Shown here: one piece after another, positions 4,788 to 20,415 of the stretch | How positions within the stretch are numbered: the stretch's first letter is position 1 | Layout of the letters: every line of letters starts with the position of its first letter | DNA from: a virus | Length of the DNA stretch: 21,142 bases | Virus record (IMG/VR): IMGVR_UViG_3300019776_000416 | Coordinates: 1 to 21,142 of that record | Reading direction: 5' to 3' (one strand) | Notes under the pieces: model-generated | Database searches by the model: none | What the model saw: only the letters and a program-made list of their open reading frames with translations | Told to the model about the DNA's origin: nothing | Position numbers and translations under genes: made by a program

Positions 4788-4806
4788 GCGGAAATAAATT
4801 TTTTAA

Positions 4807-4831
4807 CCATACGCCGTGAGGCGCTACGGAG
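4807..4831 (+). promoter_or_regulatory. Leader hairpin copy A, upstream of the decoration gene
   Basis: CGCC (4812-4815), a GTGA loop (4816-4819) and GGCG (4820-4823) form a 4-bp stem with a GNRA-type tetraloop. GGAG (4828-4831) and the ATG at 4838 follow. A T-run and AACC precede it, closely like the copy upstream of 17865. Unlike the other copies, the link between stem and ribosome-binding site is CTAC rather than CT. Confidence 0.7.
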
Positions 4832-4837
4832 AAATAG

Positions 4838-5614
4838 ATGACTACATTAGCTGCAAACAAGCAACGTCCCTATGAAATAGGCGACTACAACGATATTCCG
4901 GTCATTGCATCGGATATTATTTACGAGGGAGCTGCGGTAGGTATGGTTGCGGCTTCTGGTCACGCAAGGCCATTAACTACCGCCGATAGATTCGTTGGTT
5001 TTGCTGTTAGACAAGCCGACAATTCTTCCGGCGCTGCTGCTGCAATCAATGTAACCGTGCAAATGCGCGGTGAAATTCAGTTAGCTGTAACAGGCGCAGT
5101 TATTACCGACCTTAAACAGCCTGTCTATGCGGCTGATGATGATTCCTTCCAATTCTCCCCGGTTGGTGGCGTGTTTGTTGGATTTGTTAAGCGCTTCGTT
5201 TCGTCAGGCGTGGTTATCGTTGAGTTTGATGCGAGCGGTTTCCTTGATCCTTGGCATATGTATTCGGTGCGAGAGGAGCTTACCGGAACCAAAACATTCG
5301 ACGCAGAAGATAGCGGCAAGCTGTTCACTGTGACCGCTGCTGCTGATAACGCTGCTCTTACCCTTCCAGCTATTGCGGCTGGCTTGTCAGGAATCACCAT
5401 TTTGGCAATTGGTGCTTTTGGCACAACCAAGGTAGTTATTGATCCGAATGCGTCCGACATGATTCTTGGGCCTGACATTACTGGCGCTGATAACAAAGAT
5501 TTGATCTGCACCAAGGCAACTCAGCGCAGAGGCGACTTTGTGACGCTGATTGCTGGCGATGCTGACGGATACATGGTTACCGCTTTACGCGGCACATGGG
5601 CACGCGAGGCTTAA
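4838..5614 (+). CDS. Head decoration protein, lambda gpD-like N-terminal domain with a C-terminal extension
   Basis: This 258-residue protein has an excellent GGAG ribosome-binding site 6 nt before the ATG. Roughly residues 1-135 are a beta-rich domain like those of phage capsid cement proteins: a start resembling MTTLAANKQRPYEIGDYNDI, then IIYEGAAVGMV and a closing GVVIVEFDA. Such proteins trimerise on the expanded shell and brace it against packaged DNA. Lambda gpD is only 110 residues, so the second half (about 140-258, Ala/Gly/Thr-rich beta sequence beginning REELTGTKTFDAEDSGKLF) is an added domain. It may be exposed on the capsid surface and resembles domains found on phage structural proteins, with no binding target visible. 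The position between protease/scaffold and major capsid is that of lambda D. The hairpin leader fits very high expression. The call is good for the N-terminus; the extension is unassigned. Confidence 0.8.
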   Translation: MTTLAANKQRPYEIGDYNDIPVIASDIIYEGAAVGMVAASGHARPLTTADRFVGFAVRQADNSSGAAAAINVTVQMRGEIQLAVTGAVITDLKQPVYAADDDSFQFSPVGGVFVGFVKRFVSSGVVIVEFDASGFLDPWHMYSVREELTGTKTFDAEDSGKLFTVTAAADNAALTLPAIAAGLSGITILAIGAFGTTKVVIDPNASDMILGPDITGADNKDLICTKATQRRGDFVTLIAGDADGYMVTALRGTWAREA

Positions 5615-5633
5615 TAGTTAAGTTGTAACCGAG

Positions 5634-5698
5634 GCAGGATAACGCTGTGAAGCCGTGATCCTGCAATTCAAAAACCTAACGCCGTGATGGCGCTGGAG
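5634..5698 (+). promoter_or_regulatory. Tandem leader hairpins upstream of the major capsid gene
   Basis: The 90-nt gap before the capsid gene holds two related structures. The first has a perfect 7-bp outer stem, GCAGGAT (5634-5640) with ATCCTGC (5658-5664), enclosing a degenerate copy, AACGCTGTGAAGCC, in which GCT/AGC pairs around GTGA. The second is a near-consensus copy, CGCC (5680-5683), loop GTGAT (5684-5688) and GGCG (5689-5692), followed by CTGGAG and the ATG at 5705. There is no T-run, so a terminator is unlikely. The same double layout occurs before the tail tube gene. Confidence 0.7.
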
Positions 5699-5704
5699 AA
5701 ATAA

Positions 5705-6658
5705 ATGGCAGACCAAAGTATTTTATCAAGCCGTGCGATCATCGGCATGTATTACGCGCAATTGGAAACAGCGACCGGCGCGGCATGGATCAACTTAGTA
5801 TCAAATCTGTTTAACTCCGATCAAGCAAGCGAAACCTACCCATTCCTCGGGCAATCGCCATCAATGCGCGAGTGGCTTGGCGGCAGGAATCCAAAGGCTT
5901 TGGCTGGCAACAGCTTAACCATTGTAAATAAGCATTACGAAGCCACACTGGCCATCGCTATCAAAGACATGCGGCGCGACAAAACCGCACAGATTCAGGC
6001 GCGCATACAAGAATTTGTCGATCAAGATACCCGCCACTGGGGCAGCTTGCTGACTGACTTTATTCTGGCGGCTCCATCAACACCGTGCTATGACGGTCAA
6101 TACTTTTTCGATACCGATCACTCAGAAGGTGATAGCGGCTCCCAAAGTAACGACATCACTTGTGATATCAGCACTTACCCTGCTGCGCAGCATGGAACAA
6201 TAACGGCCCCAAGCGTTGAGGAAATGCAGCAATCAATCATGAAGGGCATCGAGGCCATATTGTCGTTTAAAGACAATCAAGGCCAACCAATGAATGACAA
6301 TGCGCGCGAGTTCCTGGTTATGGTGCCGGTAACATTGTGGGCGGTAGCAACAGCAGCCACCAGTTCCATTTTAACCTCTTCGCTCGCGCAAAATCTGAAC
6401 CCTAACGGCATGAACGGCATGACTGTTCGGGTTGAAATGAACCCGCGCCTGACCTGGACTGATTCTTTCGCTGTATTCCGCACTGACAGCCCAATTAAAC
6501 CGCTGATCCGCCAATCTGAAACAGCACCGGCATTGCAGATCATTGACGAAAATTCAGAACATGCATTCAAGCACCAAGAAATTTTGGTTGGTATCGACAC
6601 CTGGCGTAATGCTGGATATGGCTACTGGCAACGCGCTTGCTACGTGACGATGGTGTGA
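5705..6658 (+). CDS. Major capsid protein, Mu gpT family
   Basis: This 317-residue protein builds the icosahedral shell. The family signature is clear: YPFLGQSPSMREWLGGR (about residues 45-61), NKHYEATLAI and a following DMRRDK (about 78-95), and YDGQYFFDTDH (129-139), all typical of Mu-like gpT (PF10124). Mu gpT is about 305 residues, so the length fits a complete gene. The ATG at 5705 has GGAG 6 nt upstream as part of the hairpin leader, which fits the most abundant virion protein. The surrounding terminase, portal and protease genes are of lambda type, so this shell gene marks a mosaic junction in the head module. Confidence in the family is high. Whether it is processed by the upstream protease cannot be read here. 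Confidence 0.94.
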   Translation: MADQSILSSRAIIGMYYAQLETATGAAWINLVSNLFNSDQASETYPFLGQSPSMREWLGGRNPKALAGNSLTIVNKHYEATLAIAIKDMRRDKTAQIQARIQEFVDQDTRHWGSLLTDFILAAPSTPCYDGQYFFDTDHSEGDSGSQSNDITCDISTYPAAQHGTITAPSVEEMQQSIMKGIEAILSFKDNQGQPMNDNAREFLVMVPVTLWAVATAATSSILTSSLAQNLNPNGMNGMTVRVEMNPRLTWTDSFAVFRTDSPIKPLIRQSETAPALQIIDENSEHAFKHQEILVGIDTWRNAGYGYWQRACYVTMV

Positions 6659-6660
6659 TT

Positions 6661-6981
6661 ATGAAGTACACAACCACTGCAATTGTTGAATTAACAAGCG
6701 GAATTTTGAAGCTTTCAAAGGATCAGGCGCGGCGCAGGATGCGCAATTTAAAAGCTCTCAAAGACGGCAGTTTCGAGATATTGCGAGCAGTTCAATTCAA
6801 GGCTGGCGAAACGTTTGATTATGACGGAGATATACCAAAAACGCTTGCCAATAGCTTATCCGAATTTGGAAGCGGCATAACCATTGCTGAAAAAGCGGCG
6901 GTAGCGGCGGCCAAGAAAAAGAAACAAAAAGAACCGGACTCCACTGATGCAGAAGAAGGCGACAAGGACAAGGCTGAGTAA
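6661..6981 (+). CDS. Small phage head-region protein with lysine-rich tail, function unknown
   Basis: I take the ATG at 6661 (106 residues), 2 nt after the capsid stop. An in-frame TTG at 6637 lies inside the capsid gene and is unlikely. The first 70 residues are a compact mixed alpha/beta stretch with a basic helix (SKDQARRRMRNLKAL) and a strand pair (FEILRAVQFKAGETFDYD). From about residue 78 it becomes Ala-rich, then strongly charged (AAAKKKKQKEPD, ending DKDKAE), and is probably disordered. The stop overlaps the next start (TAATG), so it belongs to the same translated unit. The slot between major capsid and head-tail adaptor often holds small head-completion proteins, but no family is recognised and I assign no function. 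Confidence 0.6.
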   Translation: MKYTTTAIVELTSGILKLSKDQARRRMRNLKALKDGSFEILRAVQFKAGETFDYDGDIPKTLANSLSEFGSGITIAEKAAVAAAKKKKQKEPDSTDAEEGDKDKAE

Positions 6982-7253
6982 TGTTCTCGGAAGATTTGAG
7001 CATATTCATGGATACGGAAGATTTCGCAACAGCGGCAGATATAAACGGCTCAACTGTTAACGGAATCCTTGGGAATGAGTTTGTTCAAGTCGACTACGTC
7101 GAGTCTAAAGCGCCAGCTTTTGAGTGCGCAGCTGCTGATGTTGTCGGTGTGGCTCATGGCGATACGGTAACAATCAGCAGCGATTCGTACAAAGTGCGCG
7201 GTATACAGCCGGATGGCACTGGGCTTGTTAAATTGATCATGGAATTGCAATGA
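6981..7253 (+). CDS. Head-tail joining protein, lambda gpFII-like
   Basis: This 90-residue, beta-rich protein has the pattern of the FII/phage-attachment family: VNGILGNEFVQVDYVES, a central FECAAADVVGVAHGDTVTI and the closing YKVRGIQPDGTGLVKLIMEL. FII proteins bind the completed head beneath the portal and gpW and make the surface to which the tail attaches. Lambda gpFII is 117 residues; this shorter form retains the C-terminal beta barrel and its GIQPDGTG loop. It overlaps the upstream gene by one base and the downstream gene by an ATGA junction, typical of a coupled connector operon. The position between capsid and tail terminator supports the call. Confidence 0.82.
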   Translation: MFSEDLSIFMDTEDFATAADINGSTVNGILGNEFVQVDYVESKAPAFECAAADVVGVAHGDTVTISSDSYKVRGIQPDGTGLVKLIMELQ

Positions 7254-7690
7254 CAGATCACGTTAGAAAGCAGTTACGCGATCAAGTTGCTGTTCTGGTT
7301 CAGAGTTTAACGACTTACGCGGTTACTGTATTCAAAAATCGCAGATACCCGGTTGATCCGTCTGAATTGCCGTGCTTGATCGTGCAGACCGGAGAAGAGC
7401 GCATCGAGAATTTAACAATTGATTTTCCTGCGCAACAAGTCAGAAGTGAGCAATTGATAATCAGTGTGATAGTTGAGAACACAAGCACGCTAGATGACAT
7501 GCTCGACGAAATTTGCAAAGACATAGAAATCGCGCTTGCCGGTCATGTGACTGTGGCTAAAAGTTTCAATTTGCTTGGTGTGTCTGCAATAGAGCCAAGC
7601 GTTGTAGGGCAGAAGCCGGTAGGTCAAGTTGATATGACATTTATTGCGGAGATTTACACGCTAGAAAACGCACCATTTACAGCTTTATAG
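7250..7690 (+). CDS. Tail terminator protein, lambda gpU-like
   Basis: This 146-residue protein starts at an ATG overlapping the previous stop. The layout resembles gpU-like tail terminators: an N-terminal helix (VRKQLRDQVAVLVQSL), a strand with VFKNRRYPVDPSELPCLIV, a middle beta hairpin (RSEQLIISVIVE), a helix with LDDMLDEICKDIEIAL, and a final strand VDMTFIAEIYTL. These proteins form a hexameric ring that stops tail tube polymerisation and joins the tail to the head. Lambda gpU is 131 residues. A minor tail protein Z-like role is the alternative, as automated annotation often mixes the two. Its position immediately before the tail tube gene supports the terminator call. Confidence 0.75.
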   Translation: MTDHVRKQLRDQVAVLVQSLTTYAVTVFKNRRYPVDPSELPCLIVQTGEERIENLTIDFPAQQVRSEQLIISVIVENTSTLDDMLDEICKDIEIALAGHVTVAKSFNLLGVSAIEPSVVGQKPVGQVDMTFIAEIYTLENAPFTAL

Positions 7691-7701
7691 CAGCAAAAAG
7701 G

Positions 7702-7762
7702 CCGGGTTAACGCCGTGAGGCGCTGCTCGGATGATTAAACCTAACGTCGTGAGACGCTGGAG
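7702..7762 (+). promoter_or_regulatory. Tandem leader hairpins upstream of the tail tube gene
   Basis: The 80-nt gap repeats the double layout seen before the capsid gene. The first structure has an outer stem (CCGGG 7702-7706 with CTCGG... 7726-7730, one G-T wobble) around a consensus core: CGCC 7711-7714, GTGA 7715-7718, GGCG 7719-7722. The second core is CGTC (7745-7748), GTGA (7749-7752) and GACG (7753-7756), followed by CTGGAG and the ATG at 7771. The C-to-T change in one arm is matched by G-to-A in the other. This is a compensatory change that argues for a paired RNA. Confidence 0.74.
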
Positions 7763-7770
7763 AAAGAAAA

Positions 7771-8412
7771 ATGGCATTGATCCTACGGAATGCGGTTGTG
7801 CAGATTCAGACCGCTCTCGCATCAGCAAAAACAATCACAGGCATTTCAAAAGTCACAGAAGCTGTAATTACAGCAACGCACGATTATTCGGTTGGTGACT
7901 ACATCTTGATCGAAGCGGTGGGAGGTATGACGCAGATTAATAACCGGGTTGTCCGCGTTAAATCTGTAAGCACCACTGTTTCTTTCGTGGCGGAAGGTCT
8001 GGACTCCACTGATTTCACTACCTACACCTCGGGCGGAACGGCGAAAAAGATCACTCTCGGCGCATCGTTCGACAACATAACTCAACTTGATTTGCCTGAT
8101 GGCGCTCCTGATGAGGTGGACGTTACCACGATTCACGATGACGAAAAGCAAATTGAATTTGGTCATCAATCAGCACAAAAAGGCACTTTGTCGCTGATCG
8201 CCAATCCGCTGGCAACTGCTGTCGTTGAGGTGCAAACAGCATCGGCTGCGCTGGAAAGACGAGCTTTTCTGGTTACTTTGGCATCAGGTCAAAAGGCGTT
8301 GTTTAACGCTTACTGCGCTGGCGGCTCTGGCTTCTCTGGTGGTGTCGGTGCAGCTGGTACAGCGCAGATCAGTTTGACGCTGCGTAACAAGCCTCAGTGG
8401 TTCGCGTCATGA
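7771..8412 (+). CDS. Major tail tube protein with an internal E1-FCCH-like insert
   Basis: This 213-residue protein should polymerise as hexameric rings around the tape measure to form the non-contractile tail. The C-terminal two thirds (from about residue 95) match phage tail tube proteins: LPDGAPDEVDVTTIHDDEKQ, then a Gly-rich ..GSGFSGGVGAAGTAQISLTL ending in a final beta strand. Residues of about 20-90 look like the small beta domain found in many phage proteins and resembling the FCCH domain of E1 enzymes (AVITATHDYSVGDYILIE.VGGMTQINNRVVRVKSV). Here it is inserted near the N-terminus. The ATG has GGAG within the hairpin leader, consistent with a high-copy protein. The next gene overlaps by ATGA. 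The tube call rests on these motifs and on position between tail terminator and assembly chaperone. Confidence 0.84.
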   Translation: MALILRNAVVQIQTALASAKTITGISKVTEAVITATHDYSVGDYILIEAVGGMTQINNRVVRVKSVSTTVSFVAEGLDSTDFTTYTSGGTAKKITLGASFDNITQLDLPDGAPDEVDVTTIHDDEKQIEFGHQSAQKGTLSLIANPLATAVVEVQTASAALERRAFLVTLASGQKALFNAYCAGGSGFSGGVGAAGTAQISLTLRNKPQWFAS

Positions 8413-8750
8413 GTTCCATAGCTGAAAAGTTACGCGCTGCCAGAAAGATTGAAATCAAGATCGGAGAAATTACTTTCACCGGTTCTCGCGTCACACCTGA
8501 GCAATACAGCCGGTATTCAAATGCAGCCATGACGGATGCTGATGTTTGCCGACTGCATATCGACGGCGTTGAGGGCGCGAAAGAATCCGATCTGATCGAT
8601 GGCGGTGCAAAGAGTCCCTGGAAATTCAGCCGCGAAGATTTTAGCGAAGTCATTGCAGAAAAGCCGGAATGGTACAAGCCGCTCGTTTCTGAGCTGATCA
8701 AGCACGCGCAAGAGCGGTATCTGAATAAGGCTGAAAACGAAAAAAACTAG
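8409..8750 (+). CDS. Tail assembly chaperone, lambda gpG-like (unshifted product)
   Basis: This 113-residue product starts at the ATG (8409) overlapping the tail tube stop; an in-frame GTG at 8397 lies inside that gene. The sequence is mixed alpha/beta with a KIEIKIGEITFTGSRVTPEQ start and a helical C-terminus, like siphophage tail assembly chaperones. These coat the tape measure before the tube polymerises and are absent from the virion. The diagnostic feature is the slippery run at its end (8741-8747), just before the TAG, with an open -1 frame behind it. The position between tail tube and tape measure is the universal place for this gene. The unshifted form should be much more abundant than the fusion, as in lambda G versus GT. 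Confidence 0.85.
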   Translation: MSSIAEKLRAARKIEIKIGEITFTGSRVTPEQYSRYSNAAMTDADVCRLHIDGVEGAKESDLIDGGAKSPWKFSREDFSEVIAEKPEWYKPLVSELIKHAQERYLNKAENEKN

Positions 8751-8992
8751 ATGACTGGCTCGACTATCAGCAAATTAAAGACCTTGCTGGTGGCGAGTCA
8801 GTAGCTCTAAACAGCAACAACGAAAAAGCGGTAATCGGCTGGAATCTGCTGGGTTGTAAGCTGGATTTCAGCCAAATAGACAGCGTTGCTGAGTATCTGC
8901 AAGTTGAGGATATCGAATTATTCATTGACAGTTTGGTTGTTCTAAAAAGATATAACGATGACCGCAACAACGCAAATCAACATAACAGCTAA
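8409..8992 (+). CDS. Tail assembly chaperone frameshift fusion, lambda gpGT-like (-1 shift at 8741-8747)
   Basis: After a -1 shift on A_AAA_AAC the ribosome continues from base 8747 through 81 further codons to TAA at 8990-8992, giving a fusion of about 194 residues. The extension has no start codon of its own. It begins LDDWLDYQQIKDL and is acidic and helical, as expected of the T domain that binds the tape measure. It overlaps the tape measure start (8958) by 35 bases. The conserved siphophage arrangement, G then a slippery site then T then tape measure, is present in full. The frameshift itself is inferred from sequence. Confidence 0.82.
8741..8747 (+). promoter_or_regulatory. Programmed -1 ribosomal frameshift site A_AAA_AAC
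   Basis: In the chaperone frame the codons read GAA-AAA-AAC-TAG, so the heptamer A AAA AAC fits X XXY YYZ exactly and lies directly against the stop codon. Shifting by -1 opens an 81-codon extension. I could not identify a clear stimulating stem downstream. The stop codon itself may help by causing a pause. Confidence 0.84.
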
Positions 8993-11900
8993 AGATTCGA
9001 CGGCAGGGGCGTTTTCCTCTGCTAAGAACAATCTTTCCGATCTTGCGTCGAGCGCGTTAAAAACGACTGCCAGCCTTGCCGGAATCGGTTTAAGCATTGC
9101 CGGTGCAGTCGAAGCCGTAAAAGGCATCACACAAGCAACAATCCAGTTTCAACAATTCAATAGCACGCTACAAGTAGGCTTAGGATCGGCTCAAAAGGCC
9201 GGTGAAGCCTTATCATTCGTTCGTGCAGAATCTCAGCGTCTTGGGCTTGATCTGGCTGTTTCTGCGGATCAGTTTGCAAAACTAGCCGCGGCATCTAAAG
9301 GAACCGCGCTAGAAGGCAAGGCAACGCGAGATATCTTCACGTCAATGTCCGAGGCTGCCACGGTGCTCGGTTTGTCCGCAGATCAGACGCGCGGCGCGCT
9401 GAATGCATTCCAACAAATGATATCCAAAGGCAAGGTGCAAGCCGAAGAATTGCGCGGCCAATTGGGCGAACGTTTGCCCGGCGCATTTGGCCTTGCTGCG
9501 CGTGCCATGGGTGTTACCACGGCAGAGCTTGATAAATTACTGGCTGCCGGGAAAGTTACGGCTGATGATCTTCTTCCGAAATTAGCAGTTGAGTTAAATA
9601 AAACGTTCGGCCCACAAGCGGAAGAGTCTGCGAAGGGTCTGCAATCGCAGATTAACCGCATGAATACAGCGCTATTTGATCTAAAAATAGCCGTCGGCGA
9701 ATCCGGATTAATCAATTTCCTATCGAGCGGCATTGAGCTTGCAACAAAGCTCGGCAATGCGCTCACAGCTGCCTTTGGTGGCGGCCCTAAACTAAACCCA
9801 ATTGAGAAACAAGTCGAGCTTATCAAGACTCTCGAAAACGAGCTTGAGCGGATGCAGGGCATCAACGCTATCATCCCAATAAGCGACTTTATTTTCAGCA
9901 AAAAAGAATCCGATTTAATTAAATTCAGGATTGAAGCGGCCAAAGAGGATTTAGAAAAACTCAAAGCTATCGCTGCGATACCTGTGCCCGGTGGAAAACC
10001 AACATTGCCCGGGAAGATTGCCGAAGATTCTGGATCAGCCAAAAAAGCGTTGGATGAGCTTAACAAAGCTCAAACCGCAGCCATCGCCCGAGAACATGAA
10101 TACATCAAGCTGCTGCAGATCGAGCGTAAAGCACATGCTGATCTTGTAAAACCATATTTGGATAGCGCTGATTCCGCAGAAAAAAGATTGTCCGCAATGA
10201 ATGACGAGGTTGCGGCCATGAAGCTTTCTGTTGCAAACGGTATCAGCCTGGAAAGATCAATTGAGCTGACGACAATTGCGCGCCTGGAAGAAAAAAAGGT
10301 AATCGAGAAGGATTCCGATGTTGTTTCGCAAATACAGCGTGAGATAAATGCGCGAAAAGGTCTTGTTGACCTGATACCAGAGCATAAAAAACTGGTTGAT
10401 CAAACGCGCGATTCCACCGACCAGATTTCGCAGTTATGGATGCAAGCCGGTCGCAACATTCAAAGCACGCTGGCAAATAGCATATTCAATATTTTTGATG
10501 ATGGCCTTAAAGGCATGGTCAAGAATGTTATTTCTGCGGTTGGCCGGATTGCTTCTGAATTCGCTGCATTGAAACTGTCGCAAAGCATCGGGCTTGCCGG
10601 GATGTTCGGCGCGTCAGGGGCAAGTTCTAGCGGCGGCGGATTATCAACGTTACTCACCGGCGCATCACTGGCAAGCGGCGCATCAAACTTATTCAAGACA
10701 GGATTTGGTGCAACGTCTCTATTGAGCGGCGCTGGATCGCTCTTGCCCGGTTCTGCTGGTGCGTTTTTTAGCGGCATGGGTGGCGGTACGGTAGCTGGTG
10801 TATCAAGTCCTGCTGCGCTGATGGGTTCATCATTTGCGGCGGCTGCTGGCCCTGCAATGGGAATAGCTGCGGCCGCTTTTGCGGTTGATGCATTCGGCAA
10901 GGCAATTGCTGGAGATAAAACGCTCGGTAACGGATTCACCGATTTCATGCAGAAAATTCCGGTGCTCGGTGCCGGGTGGAATATCGTTGCAGGGTTGTTT
11001 GGGCGCGGCCCAATGAAACAGCAAGGTACTCTGCTTGAGGGGCAGATTGGCGCGCAAGGTTTTGAATCTGGAATGCTGCAAACAAGATTCAAAGCCAAGG
11101 GCGGTTTGTTTAGATCAGACAAAATTGACTATTCGCGCGTCGATGCGGTAACCGGCCAAACTTTCACAGATAACAATAAGCTGCTTGGCTTTACCGATGA
11201 GTTATCCAAGGCAAGCAAGGTTATTTTTGGCGCAATCAACGAATCCACGAAACAAACAAGTTCGAGCTTGCGCGTTGTTGCAAAAGACTTGGGTCTGGCA
11301 ACCAGCGGAATAGATGATTTCAGCTACTCATTAAGCATCCTGACCGACAAAGGCCAAGCGGTCAGCGAAGAGCAAATCGGTGAAGAGATCGGCAAAATAT
11401 CCGAAGCTCTTGCACGCAGCTTGTTACCTGCTGTCGATTCTTACTCGAGATTTGGTGAAACAGCCGTCCAAACTGTAACGCGCCTGGGTGCTGAATTCAA
11501 GGGACTGGAAAACGGCGCGATGAACTTGGGCGCATCCGCTGCTTTTGCTAAAGAGATGATCTCAGGCATGAGCATCGAAACCAGAACGGCTTTTGTGAAT
11601 CTTGCCGGTGGCTTGGAAAATATCCAAACTTTAACCGGGTATTTCGCTGAAAACTACCTGACCCCAGCGGAGAAAATCGCGCCGCTGATCGATGGCCTGG
11701 TTAATGCCGCCAAAGAGCTTGGCTACATTTACACTACTGATGTCACCAAAGACCAAGTAAAAGCACTTATCCAGTCTCAAGAAATTACCGGCGAAACGCG
11801 ATTAGGATTACTAAAGCTGTTACCGGCATTCGATACCGTGCGTAACACGCTCGATGCAATGTCAGGCGCAACCGGAACCGCAGCCGATGCAATTAATGGC

Positions 11901-13013
11901 TTTGCAAGTATCGTTCAAGGATTGCGAAGCGATCTGAATTCTACCTATCAAAGCGAACGTTCTGCGATTGAGTCAACGATTTCCAGATTCAAGGATTTAG
12001 CCGGTCAGTTGCGCTCATCGCGCGAAAGTTTGGCGCTTGGGGCATTGTCACCACTCACGCCAGGGCAAAAACTGGATGAGGCCAGGGCACAATTCAATCA
12101 AACAAGAATCGCGGCTGCTTCTGGTGACCAAAACGCATTGGCCAAGCTGCCCACAATTGCCCAGTCATTTCTGCAAGCCAGCCAAACATACAACGCATCC
12201 GGCGCGGCGTATCTGTCAGATTTTAGCATGGTCAATGACGTGCTTAAAAATGCGGAAAGTTCAGCGCTGTCGCAGATCGACATTGCCACGAATCAATTGA
12301 CCGCTCTTGATGAGAGCGTGAAAAACCTGATTGAGATCAAAGACAGCACGAAAACAGTTGTTGACCTGATCAGAGAATTGAATATTGCTGTTTTGACAAG
12401 CAAAGGCAATCCAGGCATATCCACAAGCGACATTCAGGGTTATTTGGCGGCTCATCCCGGCATGAGTCCGCAGGAAATAGCAAACGTAGCCACATCGCGC
12501 GGCGTTTCGCTTGATCAATTGGCGGCTGCGGGATACGACACCAGCAACATAATTCGGCTTGCAAACGCAGCGAATGTGAGCGATCAGCAAATCAAATCGT
12601 TCGTTGATGCAAATATCGGCAATCCGATGGCGATCTATAACGCTGCAATACAGAACGGCATTTCCTCTACCCGGCTATCATCTGCGAGCGGCTTGGCGCT
12701 GGCTGACATACAAGACTTTGTGCGCAAAAACAATCTGCCGTCGTTTGCAAAAGGCACTGATTTCATTTCCCGTAGCGGCTTGGCAATGGTTCACCGGGCG
12801 GAAGCAATCGTCCCATCGTCAACCACTGACGAAATTAAAAAACTGCGCGAAGAATTGGCCAAGCTGCGCGAAGAACAAAACCGGCAAACCGGTGACATGA
12901 TCAAGGTGACTGACATCACCAATCGCCAAAACGCGCAAGCAATAGCAAAAGCCTTGGCCGAAGCTGAAAGAACCAGACAATGGAGCGACCGCAGCAAAGC
13001 GGCGTTAGCATAG
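8958..13013 (+). CDS. Tail length tape measure protein
   Basis: This 1351-residue protein sets tail length and is ejected during infection. The N-terminus has a hydrophobic stretch (about residues 28-55) and then the tape measure N-terminal domain (about 60-250), with typical segments GLDLAVSADQFAKLAAA, LNAFQQMISKGKVQAEELRGQ and GERLPGAFGLAARAMG. A Gly/Ala/Ser-rich, strongly hydrophobic stretch lies at about 545-655 and probably interacts with membrane during DNA entry. Long helical sections flank it. Two imperfect repeats of about 50 residues lie at about 1159-1262. Near the end come GLAMVHRAEAIVPS, a motif common at tape measure C-termini, and a short coiled coil (KKLREELAKLREEQNRQ). At about 1.5 angstroms per residue of helix a tail near 200 nm would be expected. 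The ATG lies inside the chaperone extension, with only a weak AAAAAGA upstream. Confidence 0.95.
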   Translation: MTATTQINITAKDSTAGAFSSAKNNLSDLASSALKTTASLAGIGLSIAGAVEAVKGITQATIQFQQFNSTLQVGLGSAQKAGEALSFVRAESQRLGLDLAVSADQFAKLAAASKGTALEGKATRDIFTSMSEAATVLGLSADQTRGALNAFQQMISKGKVQAEELRGQLGERLPGAFGLAARAMGVTTAELDKLLAAGKVTADDLLPKLAVELNKTFGPQAEESAKGLQSQINRMNTALFDLKIAVGESGLINFLSSGIELATKLGNALTAAFGGGPKLNPIEKQVELIKTLENELERMQGINAIIPISDFIFSKKESDLIKFRIEAAKEDLEKLKAIAAIPVPGGKPTLPGKIAEDSGSAKKALDELNKAQTAAIAREHEYIKLLQIERKAHADLVKPYLDSADSAEKRLSAMNDEVAAMKLSVANGISLERSIELTTIARLEEKKVIEKDSDVVSQIQREINARKGLVDLIPEHKKLVDQTRDSTDQISQLWMQAGRNIQSTLANSIFNIFDDGLKGMVKNVISAVGRIASEFAALKLSQSIGLAGMFGASGASSSGGGLSTLLTGASLASGASNLFKTGFGATSLLSGAGSLLPGSAGAFFSGMGGGTVAGVSSPAALMGSSFAAAAGPAMGIAAAAFAVDAFGKAIAGDKTLGNGFTDFMQKIPVLGAGWNIVAGLFGRGPMKQQGTLLEGQIGAQGFESGMLQTRFKAKGGLFRSDKIDYSRVDAVTGQTFTDNNKLLGFTDELSKASKVIFGAINESTKQTSSSLRVVAKDLGLATSGIDDFSYSLSILTDKGQAVSEEQIGEEIGKISEALARSLLPAVDSYSRFGETAVQTVTRLGAEFKGLENGAMNLGASAAFAKEMISGMSIETRTAFVNLAGGLENIQTLTGYFAENYLTPAEKIAPLIDGLVNAAKELGYIYTTDVTKDQVKALIQSQEITGETRLGLLKLLPAFDTVRNTLDAMSGATGTAADAINGFASIVQGLRSDLNSTYQSERSAIESTISRFKDLAGQLRSSRESLALGALSPLTPGQKLDEARAQFNQTRIAAASGDQNALAKLPTIAQSFLQASQTYNASGAAYLSDFSMVNDVLKNAESSALSQIDIATNQLTALDESVKNLIEIKDSTKTVVDLIRELNIAVLTSKGNPGISTSDIQGYLAAHPGMSPQEIANVATSRGVSLDQLAAAGYDTSNIIRLANAANVSDQQIKSFVDANIGNPMAIYNAAIQNGISSTRLSSASGLALADIQDFVRKNNLPSFAKGTDFISRSGLAMVHRAEAIVPSSTTDEIKKLREELAKLREEQNRQTGDMIKVTDITNRQNAQAIAKALAEAERTRQWSDRSKAALA

Positions 13014-14468
13014 ATGGCAGTCGATTTCACAGCCTGGTTAACCGATCCGACAGCGATACGTTGCGTTATTGTTGAGGCCGTGGCGAATGTTTCTGGATCC
13101 GACACAACGCGCTACCTGTCGACTAAAAACTACGCCGACACCGTGGCCGGGAGAATTTACGATCCGATAGTCAATGCTGAATCAGTGCAATTAATCGAGC
13201 GCATGAGTCTTGATTCATCGCCGTCCATGAGCTTTGGCGATATCGAAATTTACAACGTAGACGGCTCGCTGGATAGCTGGCTGACTGACATTTGGGTAAA
13301 CAAGTCAATCACTGTGCTAGTGGGTGATGTGCGCTGGCTGCGCGCAGATTTTACGACCATTTTCAGCGGCACAATTGAGGATATCGACAGCCGTGCGCGC
13401 GATACGCTCAACATTAAAGTGCGTGACAAGCTACAACGGCTCAATACACCGCTGACTGAAACCACGTTAGGCGGTACATCGGTCAATAAAAATGAATTGA
13501 TTCCATTATGTTTTGGTGAGTGTTTCAACGTTTCGCCGCTGCTGACTAACCCGGCAACGCTGGAATATAAAGTACACGGCGCGGCCATTGAGTCAATCAT
13601 TGAGGTGCGCGATAACGGCGTTCCGGTAAGCAAGACCGTTACCGTTGCGCAAGGAAAATTTACGTTATCAGCGCAGCCGTTTGGACAGGTAACCGCCAGC
13701 GTGCAGGGCGACAAGCCGTCGACATGGGACAAAACAGTATCGAAGCTGGTGCAGCGCATTGTCACAGGCTATGGTGGCGTGAATAAGTTCGTGTCTGGTG
13801 ATCTGGATACCGTGCAGCTTGCCGCTTTTGATGCGGCTAATACTCAGCCGGTTGGGATTTACATCAGCGATCGGGAAAACACATTAAGCGTATGCAACCG
13901 GATCGCCGCCAGCGTTGGCGCGCAATTGGTTATGTCACGCCTGGGTAAGCTGCAATTGCTCAAAATCGAATTGCCAGCCAGCGGCACAGCGTTTGCAATC
14001 GACGCGAATGACATAATTGAAAACAGCCTGAGCATATCGCAGAAAATCCCGGTTAAGGCTGCATTCAAGGTCAACTATGACCAAAACTGGACAGTTCAGG
14101 AGGGATTGCAAACCGGGATACCAGAAGAGCACAAAGATATGTACGCGCTGGAATGGCTATCGGTCACGGCGCAGGATTCAACGGTAAAAACCAATTATTC
14201 GCTTGATTCAGAACCGGTTCCAGTTGATACGTTACTGCTGACTGAATCGGACGCAACAACAGAAGCCACTCGCTTGCTGAATCTGTACAAAACACCGCGG
14301 TTCGTTGTTACTTTCACCGGCACGGCACGGCTGGTTGAATTAACGTTAGGTCAGCGCGTCACGTTGACTTACCCGCGATTCGGGCTTGATTCAGCGAAAG
14401 AAGGTCAAGTTATCGGGCTGTCAATCGATTGGAGCAATCTCACTGTTAAATGTGAGGTGATCGTTTAA
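13014..14468 (+). CDS. Probable tail hub or tail tip protein
   Basis: This 484-residue protein begins at an ATG directly after the tape measure stop. It is beta-rich. The N-terminal half has a strand region with GDIEIYNVDGSLDSWL and a following FSGTIEDIDSRARDTLNIKVRD (about residues 80-140). That layout, strands describing a surface followed by a short insertion of D-K-L-x-x-L, recurs in proteins at the tip of siphophage tails. A later part (about 280-330) contains CNRIAASVGAQLVMSRLGKLQLLK, a helix-strand unit also found in hub proteins of the gp27 type. The gene lies where the distal tail proteins begin, right behind the tape measure. The exact equivalent in lambda (M, L or J N-terminal) cannot be decided from the sequence. 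Confidence 0.6.
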   Translation: MAVDFTAWLTDPTAIRCVIVEAVANVSGSDTTRYLSTKNYADTVAGRIYDPIVNAESVQLIERMSLDSSPSMSFGDIEIYNVDGSLDSWLTDIWVNKSITVLVGDVRWLRADFTTIFSGTIEDIDSRARDTLNIKVRDKLQRLNTPLTETTLGGTSVNKNELIPLCFGECFNVSPLLTNPATLEYKVHGAAIESIIEVRDNGVPVSKTVTVAQGKFTLSAQPFGQVTASVQGDKPSTWDKTVSKLVQRIVTGYGGVNKFVSGDLDTVQLAAFDAANTQPVGIYISDRENTLSVCNRIAASVGAQLVMSRLGKLQLLKIELPASGTAFAIDANDIIENSLSISQKIPVKAAFKVNYDQNWTVQEGLQTGIPEEHKDMYALEWLSVTAQDSTVKTNYSLDSEPVPVDTLLLTESDATTEATRLLNLYKTPRFVVTFTGTARLVELTLGQRVTLTYPRFGLDSAKEGQVIGLSIDWSNLTVKCEVIV

Positions 14469-15421
14469 TGGCTACCGTACTCAATAAGCGTGATGTTGAT
14501 CTGCAAGCAGCCAGCCCACGGACGGCAACGGTTAACCTTGGTTCAACTGTAAACGTCAATGGCAACGTTACGGGCACGCTTGACGGCACATCAGTGACCA
14601 CTGTAGTAAATGCCGCTCTGAGTGCCACGGCAAACTATTTTACTACCAGCACAAGTGATCCTACGGGTGGCGCAAACGGTGACGCGCATTTCAACAGTTC
14701 TACTAATGTCATGTGGTTCAAGGTTTCAGGAACATGGACAAGGGGAGGGACGGTAAGCGCGAGTGAAATCACGACAGGAACGCTTGCGGCTGCGCGAATC
14801 GCTGCGAATAGTATTACAGCCAGCAAAATAAGTGTTTCCTCTCTTTCAGCAATCGCGGCCAATTTAGGAACGATTACAGCCGGTGACATAACAAGCTCAT
14901 CAAATATAAATATTACCGGAACAGGAAAATTTGAGGGTAATGGAAGTGTTGGCGGGTATAGCGCAGCGATACTGGCGAACAATGGCAAAAGTAGCGCGAA
15001 CGGCGTTGTATCTTGGTCAGGGTCAAGCGCTGGTGATGCGGCTGTTTTGGGATTGGCTACGTCATCCAGTGCATACGGTGTGTATGGTTATGCATCGGCA
15101 GCAAGCACCACTGGTGTTTTTGGTTCTGCCGTAACTTCATCAGCGGTTGGTGTTACTGCATCGAATAGCTCAAGCGGAACAGCTTTGAAAGTTTTGGGGC
15201 CGATGACCATTACAAGCACCGCTCTTGTATCAAATCTCCGATCTGCGACCTGCTTGTTGGCTGATAATTCAACAAAATGGAATGGCTACACGTTTGGTTC
15301 GGCAACAACTGGTTCAGCAACAGCTACATTTCTAGCGAATAAACCCGGGTCAAATTCAAATGTTACATGGATCCCAATAACAAACGGTTCTAGTAGCGGG
15401 TATCTGCCGTTTTTTACATAA
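14468..15421 (+). CDS. Tail fibre-like protein (resembling the C-terminal part of central fibre proteins)
   Basis: This 317-residue protein overlaps the upstream gene by one base (TAATG). It has low complexity and is rich in Ser, Thr, Ala and Gly. The N-terminus carries short beta repeats (ATVNLGSTVNVNGNVTGTL). Residues of about 100-150 have SEITTGTLAAARIAANSITASKI split by SLSAIAANLGTITAGDI, the triple-stranded repeat seen near the end of lambda J-type fibres. Residues of about 165-245 hold repeats of the YGVYGYAS / TGVFGSAV / VGVTASNS type, also common in fibre shafts. A short C-terminal domain ends in GYLPFFT. It probably trimerises and extends from the tail tip, possibly to contact the host. 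No enzymatic motif was seen. Confidence 0.72.
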   Translation: MATVLNKRDVDLQAASPRTATVNLGSTVNVNGNVTGTLDGTSVTTVVNAALSATANYFTTSTSDPTGGANGDAHFNSSTNVMWFKVSGTWTRGGTVSASEITTGTLAAARIAANSITASKISVSSLSAIAANLGTITAGDITSSSNINITGTGKFEGNGSVGGYSAAILANNGKSSANGVVSWSGSSAGDAAVLGLATSSSAYGVYGYASAASTTGVFGSAVTSSAVGVTASNSSSGTALKVLGPMTITSTALVSNLRSATCLLADNSTKWNGYTFGSATTGSATATFLANKPGSNSNVTWIPITNGSSSGYLPFFT

Positions 15422-15434
15422 CAAAGGAAACAAC

Positions 15435-15776
15435 ATGGCAAGAGAACGAACTGTAATTTTAGACACTGATGAAGATATCGTGGCATTTGAGCACCACATT
15501 TACGACCGGTTTATCAGAATTTTGGTTGGGTTTGGTGTGCGCGATGCTGCCGGAAATTTCACACCATCACCTAACCAAAATTATGAACAAATAGTAATAG
15601 CCGGGAAAGAATACGAAGATTTTATGAAGGCATCAGGTGACCGGCCTGCAAATCAATTCAGGAAGGAAGATTTATGGCAGCCGGTTGATTACGTTAGGGC
15701 TGATGTTTTGGCGAAGCGTGCGGCAGTTGAAGAGGCTGTTGTTGAAGAAGTTCCAGTTAAAGCAACGAAAAAATGA
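15435..15776 (+). CDS. Small phage protein of unknown function, tail region
   Basis: This 113-residue protein has AAAGGA 6 nt before its ATG. The N-terminal 90 residues contain charged helices and short strands (DIVAFEHHIYDRFIRILVGFGV, given here as two parts: DIVAFEHHIYD and RFIRILVGFGV). The C-terminus is a run of Ala, Val, Glu and Lys (EEAVVEEVPVKATKK), probably flexible. The stop overlaps the next gene's ATG, so the two are coupled. The position between fibre and a tail surface protein suggests a role in tail tip assembly. No family is recognised, so this is only positional inference. Confidence 0.5.
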   Translation: MARERTVILDTDEDIVAFEHHIYDRFIRILVGFGVRDAAGNFTPSPNQNYEQIVIAGKEYEDFMKASGDRPANQFRKEDLWQPVDYVRADVLAKRAAVEEAVVEEVPVKATKK

Positions 15777-16609
15777 GCAATTTAAGAATCATCTATAAAA
15801 ATTTGTTCGACGATTACGACACGCTCACGCAGCTTGTTGGTTCGACTGCTGGCGGCTTTCCGCTGACAAATTTGACCGATGACACAAAGAGCAAAACATG
15901 GCGGTCAACCGATCTGCTATCGCCAAAAATAAAAGTGACGTGGGCAAGTGCGCAGACATTGAGCGCTGTTGCCATGGCATTCACAAATCTAATTGCCGGA
16001 TCCACGTTTCAGATTACTTTGTACGACGCAACAACCGGCGGAACTTTGTTACTCGATGCCGGCGCTGTTAGCGTTGGTTACTCATACGATGCGCCGATCG
16101 GTTTTAGCTCAATCGGTTCAGCGAGTTTTGCATACGGCGGAGGTGCGAATGTGGCGGCTTTCTTTGCATCAACTTCCGGCGTGCGCAGAATGGAAATCGA
16201 ATTCACCAGCGCAGGCAATCCGGACGGTTACATCGAGTTAAGCAGGATCATCGCAGGAGCGTACTGGGAGCCAGAAAAAGGCGCTTCTTACGGCGCTTCT
16301 GTGGCTTTTGTGGACAGCACGACCGGGCAGAGAACATCAGCCGGGGGATTAATAACTGACCGCGGCACAATCCACCGCGAAATGAGTTTTTCACTGGGCG
16401 CGATGAATGCGACCGATCGGCAGAATTTAAACAACTTGTTCCGATCGATCGGAAAAAGCCAGCCGCTTTTTGTCAGCTTGACGCCAGGAGACTCAAATAC
16501 AGAGGGTGAATTGTTCGGGCAGATTTACGGAAAACTTGAGGATGGCATAACAACAGACTTTGCCTTTTACCGGTACTACAGTTCGCAGATGAAAATCATT
16601 GAGCTGTGA
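15773..16609 (+). CDS. Probable distal tail or baseplate protein with a discoidin-like beta domain
   Basis: This 278-residue protein begins at an ATG overlapping the previous stop. Residues of about 25-165 resemble the jelly-roll layout of galactose-binding (discoidin-like) domains: a TWRSTDLLSPKIKVTW start, a middle LSAVAMAFTNLIAGSTFQI and TLYDATTGG, and a closing RRMEIEFTSAGNPDGYIELS. This arrangement occurs in phage tail proteins that decorate the tip. The last 80 residues contain REMSFSLGAMNATDRQNLNN, then strands ending in YYSSQMKIIEL. No catalytic motif was seen. The role is structural by context, perhaps carbohydrate contact. The family is inferred by fold pattern only. Confidence 0.52.
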   Translation: MSNLRIIYKNLFDDYDTLTQLVGSTAGGFPLTNLTDDTKSKTWRSTDLLSPKIKVTWASAQTLSAVAMAFTNLIAGSTFQITLYDATTGGTLLLDAGAVSVGYSYDAPIGFSSIGSASFAYGGGANVAAFFASTSGVRRMEIEFTSAGNPDGYIELSRIIAGAYWEPEKGASYGASVAFVDSTTGQRTSAGGLITDRGTIHREMSFSLGAMNATDRQNLNNLFRSIGKSQPLFVSLTPGDSNTEGELFGQIYGKLEDGITTDFAFYRYYSSQMKIIEL

Positions 16610-16620
16610 CTTTTATCACA
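16605..16620 (+). promoter_or_regulatory. Inverted repeat TGTGA-N6-TCACA, CRP-type half sites
   Basis: TGTGA (16605-16609) and TCACA (16616-16620) are separated by six bases, which equals the core consensus for the CRP family. It begins in the stop region of the preceding gene and lies 44 nt before the lysis-region gene at 16664. A possible -10 (AATAAT, 16635-16640) would place its centre near -34.5, not at the usual -41.5 or -61.5. A simple hairpin is the alternative. Confidence 0.3.
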
Positions 16621-16663
16621 TACAAAAACAACTTAATAATTCATCCTGCGGAGGGCGAAACTA

Positions 16664-16918
16664 TTGGAAACTCAAATGATATTAAATACTCTCTTCGGAA
16701 TTATTGCGGCCCTAGTTGGATGGTATGTGAGGATTATGTGGGAATCAATTAAAGATTTGCAGAAATCAGGTTCCGATACTGCTGAGAAAGTGCAGAGAAT
16801 AGAGGTTTTGGTTGCTGGTGACTATGTGAGAAGAGACGATCTGGACAGGACTACAGGGGCAATTTTCATGAAATTGGACAGGATTTACGACAAGTTGGAT
16901 ACAAAACAGGATAAATGA
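16664..16918 (+). CDS. Small one-helix membrane protein at the head of the lysis region (possible holin)
   Basis: I choose the TTG at 16664 (84 residues) because GGAGG (16650-16654) lies 9 nt upstream; the in-frame ATG at 16676 would be 21 nt away. Residues of about 5-22 (MILNTLFGIIAALVGWYV) form one transmembrane segment. A charged, probably coiled-coil tail follows (IKDLQKSGSDTAEKVQRIE, then DRIYDKLDTKQDK). This pattern is common in phage genomes just upstream of spanin genes. A holin or holin-associated role is suggested by the neighbouring spanin pair, but many such proteins are uncharacterised and one helix alone does not prove it. The next gene begins 1 nt after its stop. Confidence 0.6.
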   Translation: METQMILNTLFGIIAALVGWYVRIMWESIKDLQKSGSDTAEKVQRIEVLVAGDYVRRDDLDRTTGAIFMKLDRIYDKLDTKQDK

Positions 16919-16919
16919 T

Positions 16920-17387
16920 ATGAGTCCATTACAAATAAAACTAGCCATTTATGCGGCAATGGCGCTGATTTTGACCGGGATATATTTTAGTTGGGAATAT
17001 CACATCAAATCTGTGCAGAAAGAAAAAGACCGGGCTGAGGTGGCTTTGCGTGATGCAGATACGGCAAGGCAAAGCGCTGAATTGATGGCTGCGGAAAAGA
17101 GCAGAGTGGAAAAATTGAACAATGAACAAAACGAGAGGTTACAGAATGCAATTACTATCTATGCGGATCATGCCAGCAATCTTACTGATGATGTTGCTAA
17201 TCTCACTAACCGGCTGCGGATCAATCGCGCCCCGGCAAGTTGTAGTAAAAACACCGTGTCCGGAACAAGCGACGATAACGGAAAAGGAAAAGCTGGAAAT
17301 AATGAAGCGGATACAGATATTGCGCGCGCGGCAATCGAATTAGCGAATATGTGTGAATTGCAGATCAACAAATTACCGGTGAAATGA
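16920..17387 (+). CDS. Inner-membrane spanin (Rz-like)
   Basis: This 155-residue protein has one N-terminal transmembrane segment (about residues 6-25, IKLAIYAAMALILTGIYF) and then a long charged heptad-like helix (about 30-100, VQKEKDRAEVALRDADTA, RVEKLNNEQNERLQNA). This is the standard layout of inner-membrane spanins, which are anchored in the cytoplasmic membrane and reach across the periplasm to fuse it with the outer membrane at the last step of lysis. A lipoprotein gene lies completely inside it in another frame, the diagnostic Rz/Rz1 arrangement. The C-terminal part is polar with two Cys (in ASCSKN and NMCELQ). Lambda Rz is 153 residues. Confidence 0.85.
   Translation: MSPLQIKLAIYAAMALILTGIYFSWEYHIKSVQKEKDRAEVALRDADTARQSAELMAAEKSRVEKLNNEQNERLQNAITIYADHASNLTDDVANLTNRLRINRAPASCSKNTVSGTSDDNGKGKAGNNEADTDIARAAIELANMCELQINKLPVK
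17146..17343 (+). CDS. Outer-membrane spanin lipoprotein (Rz1-like), embedded in the Rz gene
   Basis: This 65-residue product is in the +1 frame relative to the surrounding Rz gene. I choose the ATG at 17146, with AGAGG (17134-17138) 7 nt before it; an in-frame ATG at 17122 would add 8 residues. A signal sequence (MRIMPAILLMMLLISLTG) ends in the lipobox LTGC with the lipidation site at C24. The mature part is short and begins GSIAPRQVVVKTPCPEQATI, a Pro- and Cys-containing stretch typical of Rz1 proteins, followed by a charged helix. It should be fixed in the outer membrane and contact Rz by its C-terminus. Complete embedding, rather than partial overlap, is as in lambda. Confidence 0.88.
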   Translation: MQLLSMRIMPAILLMMLLISLTGCGSIAPRQVVVKTPCPEQATITEKEKLEIMKRIQILRARQSN

Positions 17388-17827
17388 TGGGTAAATTTTT
17401 GACCGATCTAGCATCAATTGAAATTGATAAAGGCGGATTGTTCAGCCGTCCGCGATATCGGCTGACATCGCCGCTGATTTACAAATCGAACAATGTCGGC
17501 CTGATTATCGCAGACGAAAACAGAGAGACTGATTACGATTCAACGCCACGCATCCCGGTCTTTTATATGCTGCTTGGGAATCGCGGCAAAGCACCAGCAA
17601 CTATTCACGATCAATTGTACGATCAGCCGCATGAGCGCATAGCCGGAACTGGGTTGACTGTAGACCGCGCAACGGCAGACAAAGTGCTACGCGGCGCAAC
17701 ATATGAAAGCATGAGAATTTCAGAACCTGAAACACTGCTTGATAATTTGACGAATATCGCATGCCTTGGTATTGCTTGGTTGATTTGGGCAGGAGTTAGG
17801 CTGGGCGGCTGGGCACACTGGAAGTAA
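17384..17827 (+). CDS. DUF1353 family phage protein with a C-terminal hydrophobic helix
   Basis: This 147-residue protein begins at tandem ATGs (17384 or 17387), the first overlapping the Rz stop. The DUF1353 pattern is seen: TDLASI near the start, then PATIHDQLYD (about residues 71-80), a helix with DRATADKVLRGATYESM, and a terminal GVRLGGWAHW. A hydrophobic stretch (LTNIACLGIAWLIWAGV) near the end could span or enter a membrane. The function of this family is not established. The conserved HD could suggest metal binding, but that is inference. Directly downstream of the spanins it occupies a slot where lysis accessory genes occur. No endolysin was found in the window, and I do not assign this one as such. 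Confidence 0.72.
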   Translation: MMGKFLTDLASIEIDKGGLFSRPRYRLTSPLIYKSNNVGLIIADENRETDYDSTPRIPVFYMLLGNRGKAPATIHDQLYDQPHERIAGTGLTVDRATADKVLRGATYESMRISEPETLLDNLTNIACLGIAWLIWAGVRLGGWAHWK

Positions 17828-17835
17828 TTTTTTTA

Positions 17836-17860
17836 ACCTAACGCCGTGAGGCGCTGGAGG
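17836..17860 (+). promoter_or_regulatory. Leader hairpin copy upstream of the small gene at 17865
   Basis: This is a full consensus copy: AACCTAACGCC, GTGA (17846-17849), GGCG (17850-17853), then CT and GGAGG (17856-17860), with the ATG at 17865. A seven-T run precedes it as at copy A (4807). It lies 10 kb away from the other copies, so it was not formed by local duplication. Confidence 0.74.
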
Positions 17861-17864
17861 AAGT

Positions 17865-18107
17865 ATGTCAGGAACATCTTTTGACGATGGTTTGGCGAAA
17901 ATAATCGACACAACCACAAGCTCAACTTATACCTATATCCACAAGGCAATGGAAGAGAATGCGTCCAGAACTGCGGCTGTCTGGCTTACAAAGAGGATAC
18001 CGAACGCAGGGGGGCGCGTAGCTTTTGCAAATTCAATTACTGATTTTTCAAGACCTGATTTATTAATGACAGTGGCCGAGGGATTATCTGCCACTTACGC
18101 TTCCTGA
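17865..18107 (+). CDS. Small protein of unknown function with the structural-gene leader hairpin
   Basis: This 80-residue protein has no signal peptide or membrane segment. The sequence is mixed: an N-terminal DGLAKIIDTTTSSTYTYIH, a helix with MEENASRTAAVWLTKRI and a C-terminus rich in Ala and Ser. No family is recognised. It has the strongest ribosome-binding site in the region (GGAGG, 4 nt before the ATG) within the hairpin leader shared only with the decoration, capsid and tail tube genes. This suggests high expression and perhaps a virion role, but that is inference. It heads a run with the two large genes that follow. Confidence 0.55.
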   Translation: MSGTSFDDGLAKIIDTTTSSTYTYIHKAMEENASRTAAVWLTKRIPNAGGRVAFANSITDFSRPDLLMTVAEGLSATYAS

Positions 18108-20261: not shown

Positions 20262-20310
20262 TGGTGCTGTTGAGAGGAGTCGAACCTCCGACCTACTGAT
20301 TACGAATCAG
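20262..20310 (-). pseudogene. 3' fragment of a tRNA-Thr(CGT) gene (attachment core)
   Basis: On the - strand it reads the anticodon loop TTCGTAA (anticodon CGT, threonine) with its right stem, a variable loop, a T arm (GGAGG, loop TTCGACT, CCTCT), the acceptor 3' strand CAACAGC, discriminator A and an encoded CCA. The acceptor 5' strand and D arm are missing: beyond 20310 there is no GCTGTTG or D-arm sequence in this orientation. It cannot fold as a complete tRNA. Phages that integrate in tRNA genes carry exactly such a 3' half to restore the gene. Confidence 0.82.
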
Positions 20311-20415
20311 ATATGACAGTTTAAAATATAAATGCAATCAGTTGGTTAGAATTTTATAACGTAGTGAACTGTAATTCTGTGTATGTTTGCAATCAATAAC
20401 TTACATTTTGTGCAA

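Follow-up and report, generated by a model that had tools for sequence, protein, structure and literature searches.

In the coat operator of phage MS2, a hairpin with fixed loop bases at the translation start is bound by a phage protein. The operator of T4 gene 43 combines the ribosome-binding site (RBS) with a hairpin located ~40 nt upstream and is bound by the gene's own product (PMC3014915). Two further T4 proteins, RegA and RegB, treat many initiation regions of one phage: RegA sites are devoid of structure, whereas RegB cuts Shine-Dalgarno (SD) sequences of the GGAG type, which RNA structure shields from it (PMC3014915). The element analyzed here resembles the gene 43 and MS2 operators in being a hairpin with fixed loop bases at the translation start of phage genes. 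However, each of these operators serves one gene, whereas a single phage can have the element before as many as six genes with unrelated products; it also differs from the RegA and RegB targets in that its GGA is paired or absent. Judged by sequence, it appears to work like a known kind of RNA, the translational operator or leader, from which it differs in its presence before several unrelated genes per phage and across unrelated phages.

Hairpin leaders in a tailed phage genome

The window, i.e., the whole stretch of DNA analyzed (21,142 bases), is the complete IMG/VR record IMGVR_UViG_3300019776_000416 of a tailed phage with genes for terminase, portal, S49-type protease, decoration protein, Mu-like gpT capsid protein, tail terminator, and tail-tube protein. 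An earlier sequence-only reading had described a recurrent core hairpin followed by CTGGAG. The core is real: a pattern search of the window finds CGCCGTGAGGCG exactly at 4812, 7711, and 17842. The copy at 7745 is CGTC-GTGA-GACG, a compensated stem, bearing out the claim that pairing is kept rather than sequence, and the one at 5680-5692, CGCC-GTGAT-GGCG, has a pentaloop with a fifth loop base (GUGAU), a form that recurs in other phages. CTGGAG itself follows the core only at 5693, 7757, and 17854, but not at 4812 and 7711, where the bases 3′ of the core are CTACGGAG and CTGCTCGG, respectively. The purported degenerate copy at 5643 is unsupported by sequence alone because window matches with up to three mismatches are at chance level (16 found vs 16.1 expected); it does, however, fold as a long hairpin (5634-5664), the outer stem of which shows A-U to G-C compensation relative to L006 and L007 (compensatory stem changes are seen in the related contigs L005-L007).

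When the whole window was scanned with a covariance model, filters off, four leaders (Table 1) and nothing else convincing emerged, in agreement with the claim that only four genes are preceded by the hairpin. Given that the model (R1, with rough E-values) was built partly from these window sequences, the scan shows absence elsewhere in the window rather than providing independent support. The next-best match, at 8301 (E 0.009), lies inside the tail-tube coding sequence and lacks the loop. The leaders of the major capsid protein (MCP) and tail-tube genes are tandem pairs, the upstream member of which has a long outer stem. At the decoration gene, where the internal loop is a variant, the relative L005/G001 has the canonical form, and the variant itself recurs in L288.

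Table 1 Hairpin leaders in the 21,142-base window and the genes that follow them
Feature	Position	Strand	Details
Decoration-gene leader element	4806..4831	+	CC-AUA-CGCC-GUGA-GGCG-CUA-C-GG, variant internal loop; SD CGGAG; ATG 4838
Decoration/cement-like protein	4838..5614	+	phrog_1731; weak PF22758 similarity
Upstream hairpin of MCP leader	5634..5664	+	7-bp outer stem GCAGGAU/AUCCUGC, inner GCU-GUGA-AGC; fold and compensation
Main MCP element	5674..5698	+	Pentaloop GUGAU; SD GGAG 5695-5698; ATG 5705; model E 4e-7
MCP, Mu-like gpT	5705..6658	+	PF10124, phrog_371
Upstream tandem hairpin, tail-tube leader	7702..7730	+	6-bp outer helix CCGGGU/GCUCGG, internal loop UAA/CU; E 2e-7
Main tail-tube element	7739..7762	+	Stem CGUC/GACG; SD GGAG 7759-7762; ATG 7771; E 3e-9
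Tail tube protein	7771..8412	+	PF08813, phrog_584
Element before small gene	17836..17859	+	Consensus form; ATG 17865; E 2e-10
80-aa protein, no assigned function	17865..18107	+	Directly 5′ of 302-aa and 387-aa genes, likewise unassigned

Association with start codons and virion genes

Copies of the hairpin were collected by seeded pattern scans of IMG/VR, so that all counts are lower bounds biased to the seed: at least 341 distinct copies were found, at least 299 of which are tied to a gene start. The pattern TAACNNNGTGANNNGCTGGAG occurs at 65 distinct sites in IMG/VR viral contigs, with a fully pairable stem at 51. Directly 5′ of an ATG lie 48 of these 51 paired-stem sites but only 1 of the 14 unpaired ones (Fisher p = 5e-10), indicating that the recurrence is not due to chance. 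The paired stems are of seven types: GCA/TGC (17), GCC/GGC (13), GCT/AGC (7), GTC/GAC (5), GTT/AAC (4), GAT/ATC (3), and GAA/TTC (2); the last two sites have no start codon nearby and look like chance matches.

By similarity to annotated representatives, the element-gene pairs (at least 299) involve MCP (96), scaffold (30), DNA-ejection-like (24), portal (18), fibre or spike (16), tail tube (13), terminase (2), and decoration (2) genes, along with genes for a 106-aa (45) and a 107-aa (12) protein, neither with an assigned function, and others (41). The MCPs belong to six PHROG families (371, 1328, 283, 6671/264, 212, and 10), and among 20 phages the element precedes 10 of the 12 recognised MCP genes. 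Each phage carries between one and six copies among roughly 40-90 genes. Hence, the expectation that a model-type search of phages would yield hits clustered before capsid and tail genes proved correct, and the link to virion structural genes holds across MCPs of six families, scaffold, portal, and tail tube. The narrower proposal that the hairpin marks the most abundant virion proteins, abundance being deduced from their roles, fits the MCP, decoration, and tail-tube genes, but scaffold, portal, terminase, ejection, and fibre genes are preceded as well. Portal and terminase are low-copy, so abundance is not the whole rule, and targets such as portal, terminase, and scaffold weaken a simple reading in which the element yields more protein.

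Anatomy of the element

The element spans ~24 nt with the consensus 5′-N[CU][CU]-UAA-CGNN-GNGA-NNCG-C[UCA]-G[GA]N-3′ and is composed of a 4-bp inner helix with a GNGA loop, a UAA/CH internal loop, and an outer helix of 2-3 bp. The internal loop and the outer helix were overlooked in the initial description, which had recognized a GNRA-type loop; the loop is indeed GNRA-like but narrower, GNGA only. In an IMG/VR scan that left the loop and inner pair free, GTGA (41), GCGA (37), GAGA (21), and GGGA (1) were recovered along with isolated loops of other kinds. Of 100 GNGA sites, 99 were located 5′ of an ATG, and GNAA loops were absent from the paired sites. Searches with 3-, 6-, or 7-nt loops yielded chance matches only, whereas pentaloops of the form GNGAY are present in 24 of the gene-linked copies (at least 299). 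Among the matches listed, UAA was found in 92 and NAA in 103 of 115 paired sites before ATG when the 5′ flank was left free, and the first base of the 3′ internal loop, likewise left free, was C in 145 of 155 such sites, followed by U, A, or C.

For analysis of covariation, 110 distinct elements were picked by TAAC, loop, closing C..GC, and ATG position; pairing elsewhere was not a criterion. Both helices covary, with a score of 0.383 compared to 0.171 in shuffles (which ignore relatedness), none of 500 reaching as high a value. Against the same shuffles, paired cells amount to 87.4% vs 75.5% and changes on both sides to 94 vs 28.5 cells. Sliding the partner columns by 1-3 positions yields a score of at most 0.157. 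The outer pair 2:22 is CG in 60 elements, UA in 24, UG in 8, and AU and GC in 3 each; because this pair covaries, the alternative register suggested by RNAfold (CUA paired with UGG) was dropped. At the level of sequence, CCUAAC/GCUGG, with its asymmetric UAA loop, resembles GNRA tetraloop receptors, a GNRA-type loop being present too; compared with the tetraloop/receptor sequences, however, the 3′ strand is CU rather than UAU or A, and the loop is GNGA rather than GAAA.

Position relative to the Shine-Dalgarno sequence

In type I copies (at least 195), the GG of the SD sequence GGAG sits in the outer helix, and the SD lies 5-6 nt from the start codon in 147 of 195 copies among the matches listed. 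In type II (at least 74 copies), the outer helix is UUC/GAA, CUC/GAG, or similar, and an AAGG-type SD follows just 3′. Where the SD is other than GGAG, the 5′ strand changes along with it (UUC..GAA, CUC..GAG, AUC..GAU), which indicates that the outer helix itself is under selection. The predicted probability that the SD is unpaired is 0.33 with the element and 0.42 when the element is shuffled (mean dG -6.6 kcal/mol); with occlusion this mild, the hairpin alone would be a weak switch, and repression by folding alone would be weak.

Tandem pairs recur at a spacing of 29-42 nt, the upstream copies mostly lacking a start codon of their own. In type III, a second hairpin of unrelated sequence is located directly 3′ of the outer helix and is usually followed by a GAC-containing spacer and the SD. 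This type accounts for about 18-20 of the 30 copies placed 30-60 nt from the start among the matches listed; most of the remainder are pairs, tandem or degenerate, that precede MCP or tail-tube genes, and a few cases are unassigned. Genes following type III leaders encode acidic proteins of ~320 aa matching scaffold representatives (phrog_3927), a call supported by PHROG for one of the two representatives and otherwise by phmmer similarity; the second representative, scafB, has no PHROG match and was called scaffold by position and composition only.

Distribution and comparison with described RNAs

The element is spread over unrelated phages and nearly absent from bacterial genomes. The relatives of the window MCP at 84-85% identity (L005-L009) carry it, but those of lower identity do not; it is also missing from named phages whose MCPs are related (Rhodoferax phage P26218, Manatee Spring phages, and EBPR podovirus 1), showing that it is not generally needed. 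BLAST searches of an annotated phage collection with short element queries gave chance matches only and no named carrier; a match in Pseudomonas phage Medea1 was examined and set aside. An exact scan of 84,980 bacterial and archaeal species, one genome per species, gave 10 matches, ~4 of them in start-codon context: a prophage of Undibacterium rivi (tandem, before the tail tube gene) and contigs binned as Nitrosomonas, Polaromonas, and a Hyphomicrobiales MAG. In ~1,080 sampled bacterial genomes, only the seeds and one further Burkholderiales genome matched, the leader in this additional prophage being the same as in contig L341. The hosts look to be mainly Burkholderiales, judging from a few cases in which the binning of phage contigs can be wrong.

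Rfam 15 yielded no relevant match, and no score reaching a family's gathering threshold, in the window (E up to 5), nine carrier loci, or the MCP region, although some models may miss an element of just 24 nt. Mu-gpT-DE RNA (RF03012) is, like the element, a structured RNA, and takes its name from Mu gpT, to whose family the capsid protein of the window belongs; its 53-position model found none of 24 carriers, including the window, at E <= 0.1, with an E. coli control genome registering below the cut-off. We found no description of the hairpin in the open-licence literature, and subscription journals may hold one. Within these searches, the statement that no described element has this sequence stands. 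The element is not an intrinsic terminator because the SD and start codon come after it rather than a U run. Nor does it look like a CsrA/RsmA target, its GGA being in the outer helix or missing. Like cis-regulatory mRNA leaders, it is conserved in structure and occupies a constant position 5′ of coding regions, consistent with the cis RNA element suggested initially.

Proposed function and alternatives

We propose, with a probability of roughly 0.6, that the element is a conserved phage cis-regulatory RNA which, located at the RBS of virion-protein genes, sets the rate or timing of translation initiation. Its fixed place at the SD, the SD within or abutting the structure, and the compensated helices of copies with displaced SDs all suggest that it would act on the mRNA, at this step. 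Neither a stability cap nor simple occlusion would require the invariant bases of the loop and internal loop, which are therefore probably read by something. Candidate readers are, on the ribosome, the 30S platform or a ribosomal protein and, otherwise, a host RNA-binding protein. Binding or docking would then change 30S access to the SD overlapped or abutted by the outer helix, and the tandem and scaffold-associated two-hairpin forms could allow output to differ between proteins that are required in unequal quantities.

An alternative is that the element is an operator for a phage-encoded RNA-binding regulator that represses or activates late genes. Such regulators include MS2 coat, T4 gp43, Mu Com, and lambda N, which acts at boxB, and strict loop and internal-loop bases, tandem sites, and phage-only distribution are typical of protein operators. 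However, no protein family found by BLAST, with which short divergent peptides would be missed, extends to more than 9 of 20 carriers; the most widely shared one looks like a terminase. The CsrA gene is absent from 41 carriers (phage genomes). We consider this possibility unlikely. The lack of both a widely shared phage protein and a T7-type RNA polymerase (see below) makes the ribosome or a host protein the likelier reader, and a short divergent phage peptide appears less likely than either.

Alternatively, the hairpin might serve mRNA stability or processing, capping 5′ ends left by upstream cleavage or termination and shielding them against RNase E-type decay. Among the copies listed, a terminator-like hairpin lies immediately 5′ of 24%, compared with 2.9% of other gene starts (p = 6e-19), suggesting an RNA end between the two; this observation keeps the processing hypothesis alive and leaves little room for a promoter there. 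Tandem hairpins, too, would fit a protective cap. Nevertheless, three quarters of the copies have no such upstream hairpin, and a pure cap needs neither an invariant loop, nor a UAA/CH internal loop, nor fixed spacing to the SD, which makes a role of this kind quite improbable.

Another explanation, that the element is merely a recombining RBS cassette which spreads without a regulatory role beyond a good SD, is very unlikely: the SD is within or adjoining the element and unrelated phages carry it, but type II copies lose GGAG and yet keep the helix by compensatory change, upstream tandem copies mostly lack a start codon, and an SD needs neither loop nor internal loop. Least credible is a transcription element: a promoter of the N4 virion-RNAP type, recognized as a DNA hairpin, or one that a phage RNA polymerase reads. 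In its favor, the hairpin covaries, terminators lie directly upstream, and there is one copy per gene. However, no T7-type RNA polymerase (PF00940) was detected in 41 carriers (T7 control positive) and the largest ORF in 20 carriers is 2117 aa (some records being fragments), U-G is common in the outer helix (102 of at least 299 gene-linked copies at one pair), and GGAG or the displaced SD must be in RNA.

Returning to regulation of translation initiation, we more tentatively entertain a broader scenario, in which unrelated tailed phages, mainly of Burkholderiales, would mark capsid, scaffold, and tail mRNAs with a shared RNA "virion-gene code" read by the ribosome or an RNA-binding protein of the host, the single, tandem, and two-hairpin forms setting protein ratios or timing with no phage regulator involved.

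To our knowledge, it is mainly in a few model phages that we understand how capsid, scaffold, portal, and tail proteins come to be made in very different amounts when their genes share transcripts. One covarying RNA that accompanies MCP genes of six PHROG families and has a form of its own before scaffold genes makes control of protein ratios directly testable and points to an RNA reader, possibly host-encoded. The element would also provide a compact tunable part for translation and a sequence marker by which virion genes could be recognized in metagenomes.

Variants and flanking features of the leader hairpin

Within the internal loop of the element, columns 4 and 20 are preferentially occupied by U with U or C with C, a preference which suggests a non-canonical pyrimidine pair. 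In one group of phages (L085, L093, L094, L097, L102, L104 and L109), the leader reads CGCC-GTGA-GGCG-CTGGAG followed by ATG, and its 5′ flank is CCC rather than UAA; these leaders possibly represent a distinct variant of the element. A terminator often lies immediately 5′ of them. Across the carrier loci (phage sequences with element copies), about one quarter of the copies are directly preceded by a terminator-like hairpin, frequently with a TTCG loop. The two-hairpin (type III) leaders of scaffold genes (L182, L278, L299, L333, L348 and others) contain an extra hairpin of unconstrained sequence, and the order is second hairpin, spacer with GAC, and Shine-Dalgarno sequence.

Coordinates of the features discussed
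Sequence	Positions	Strand	Feature
L212	4336-4653		106-aa protein family member
Window	20265-20335	-	Weak tRNA-like similarity; at 26.5 bits it misses the Rfam threshold (29)

The commonest unnamed gene 3′ of the element encodes a 106-aa protein family (the L212 protein and homologues; preceded by 45 copies of the element), for which searches against PHROG and Pfam returned no matches. The hairpin could serve as a handle for locating this family in metagenomes.
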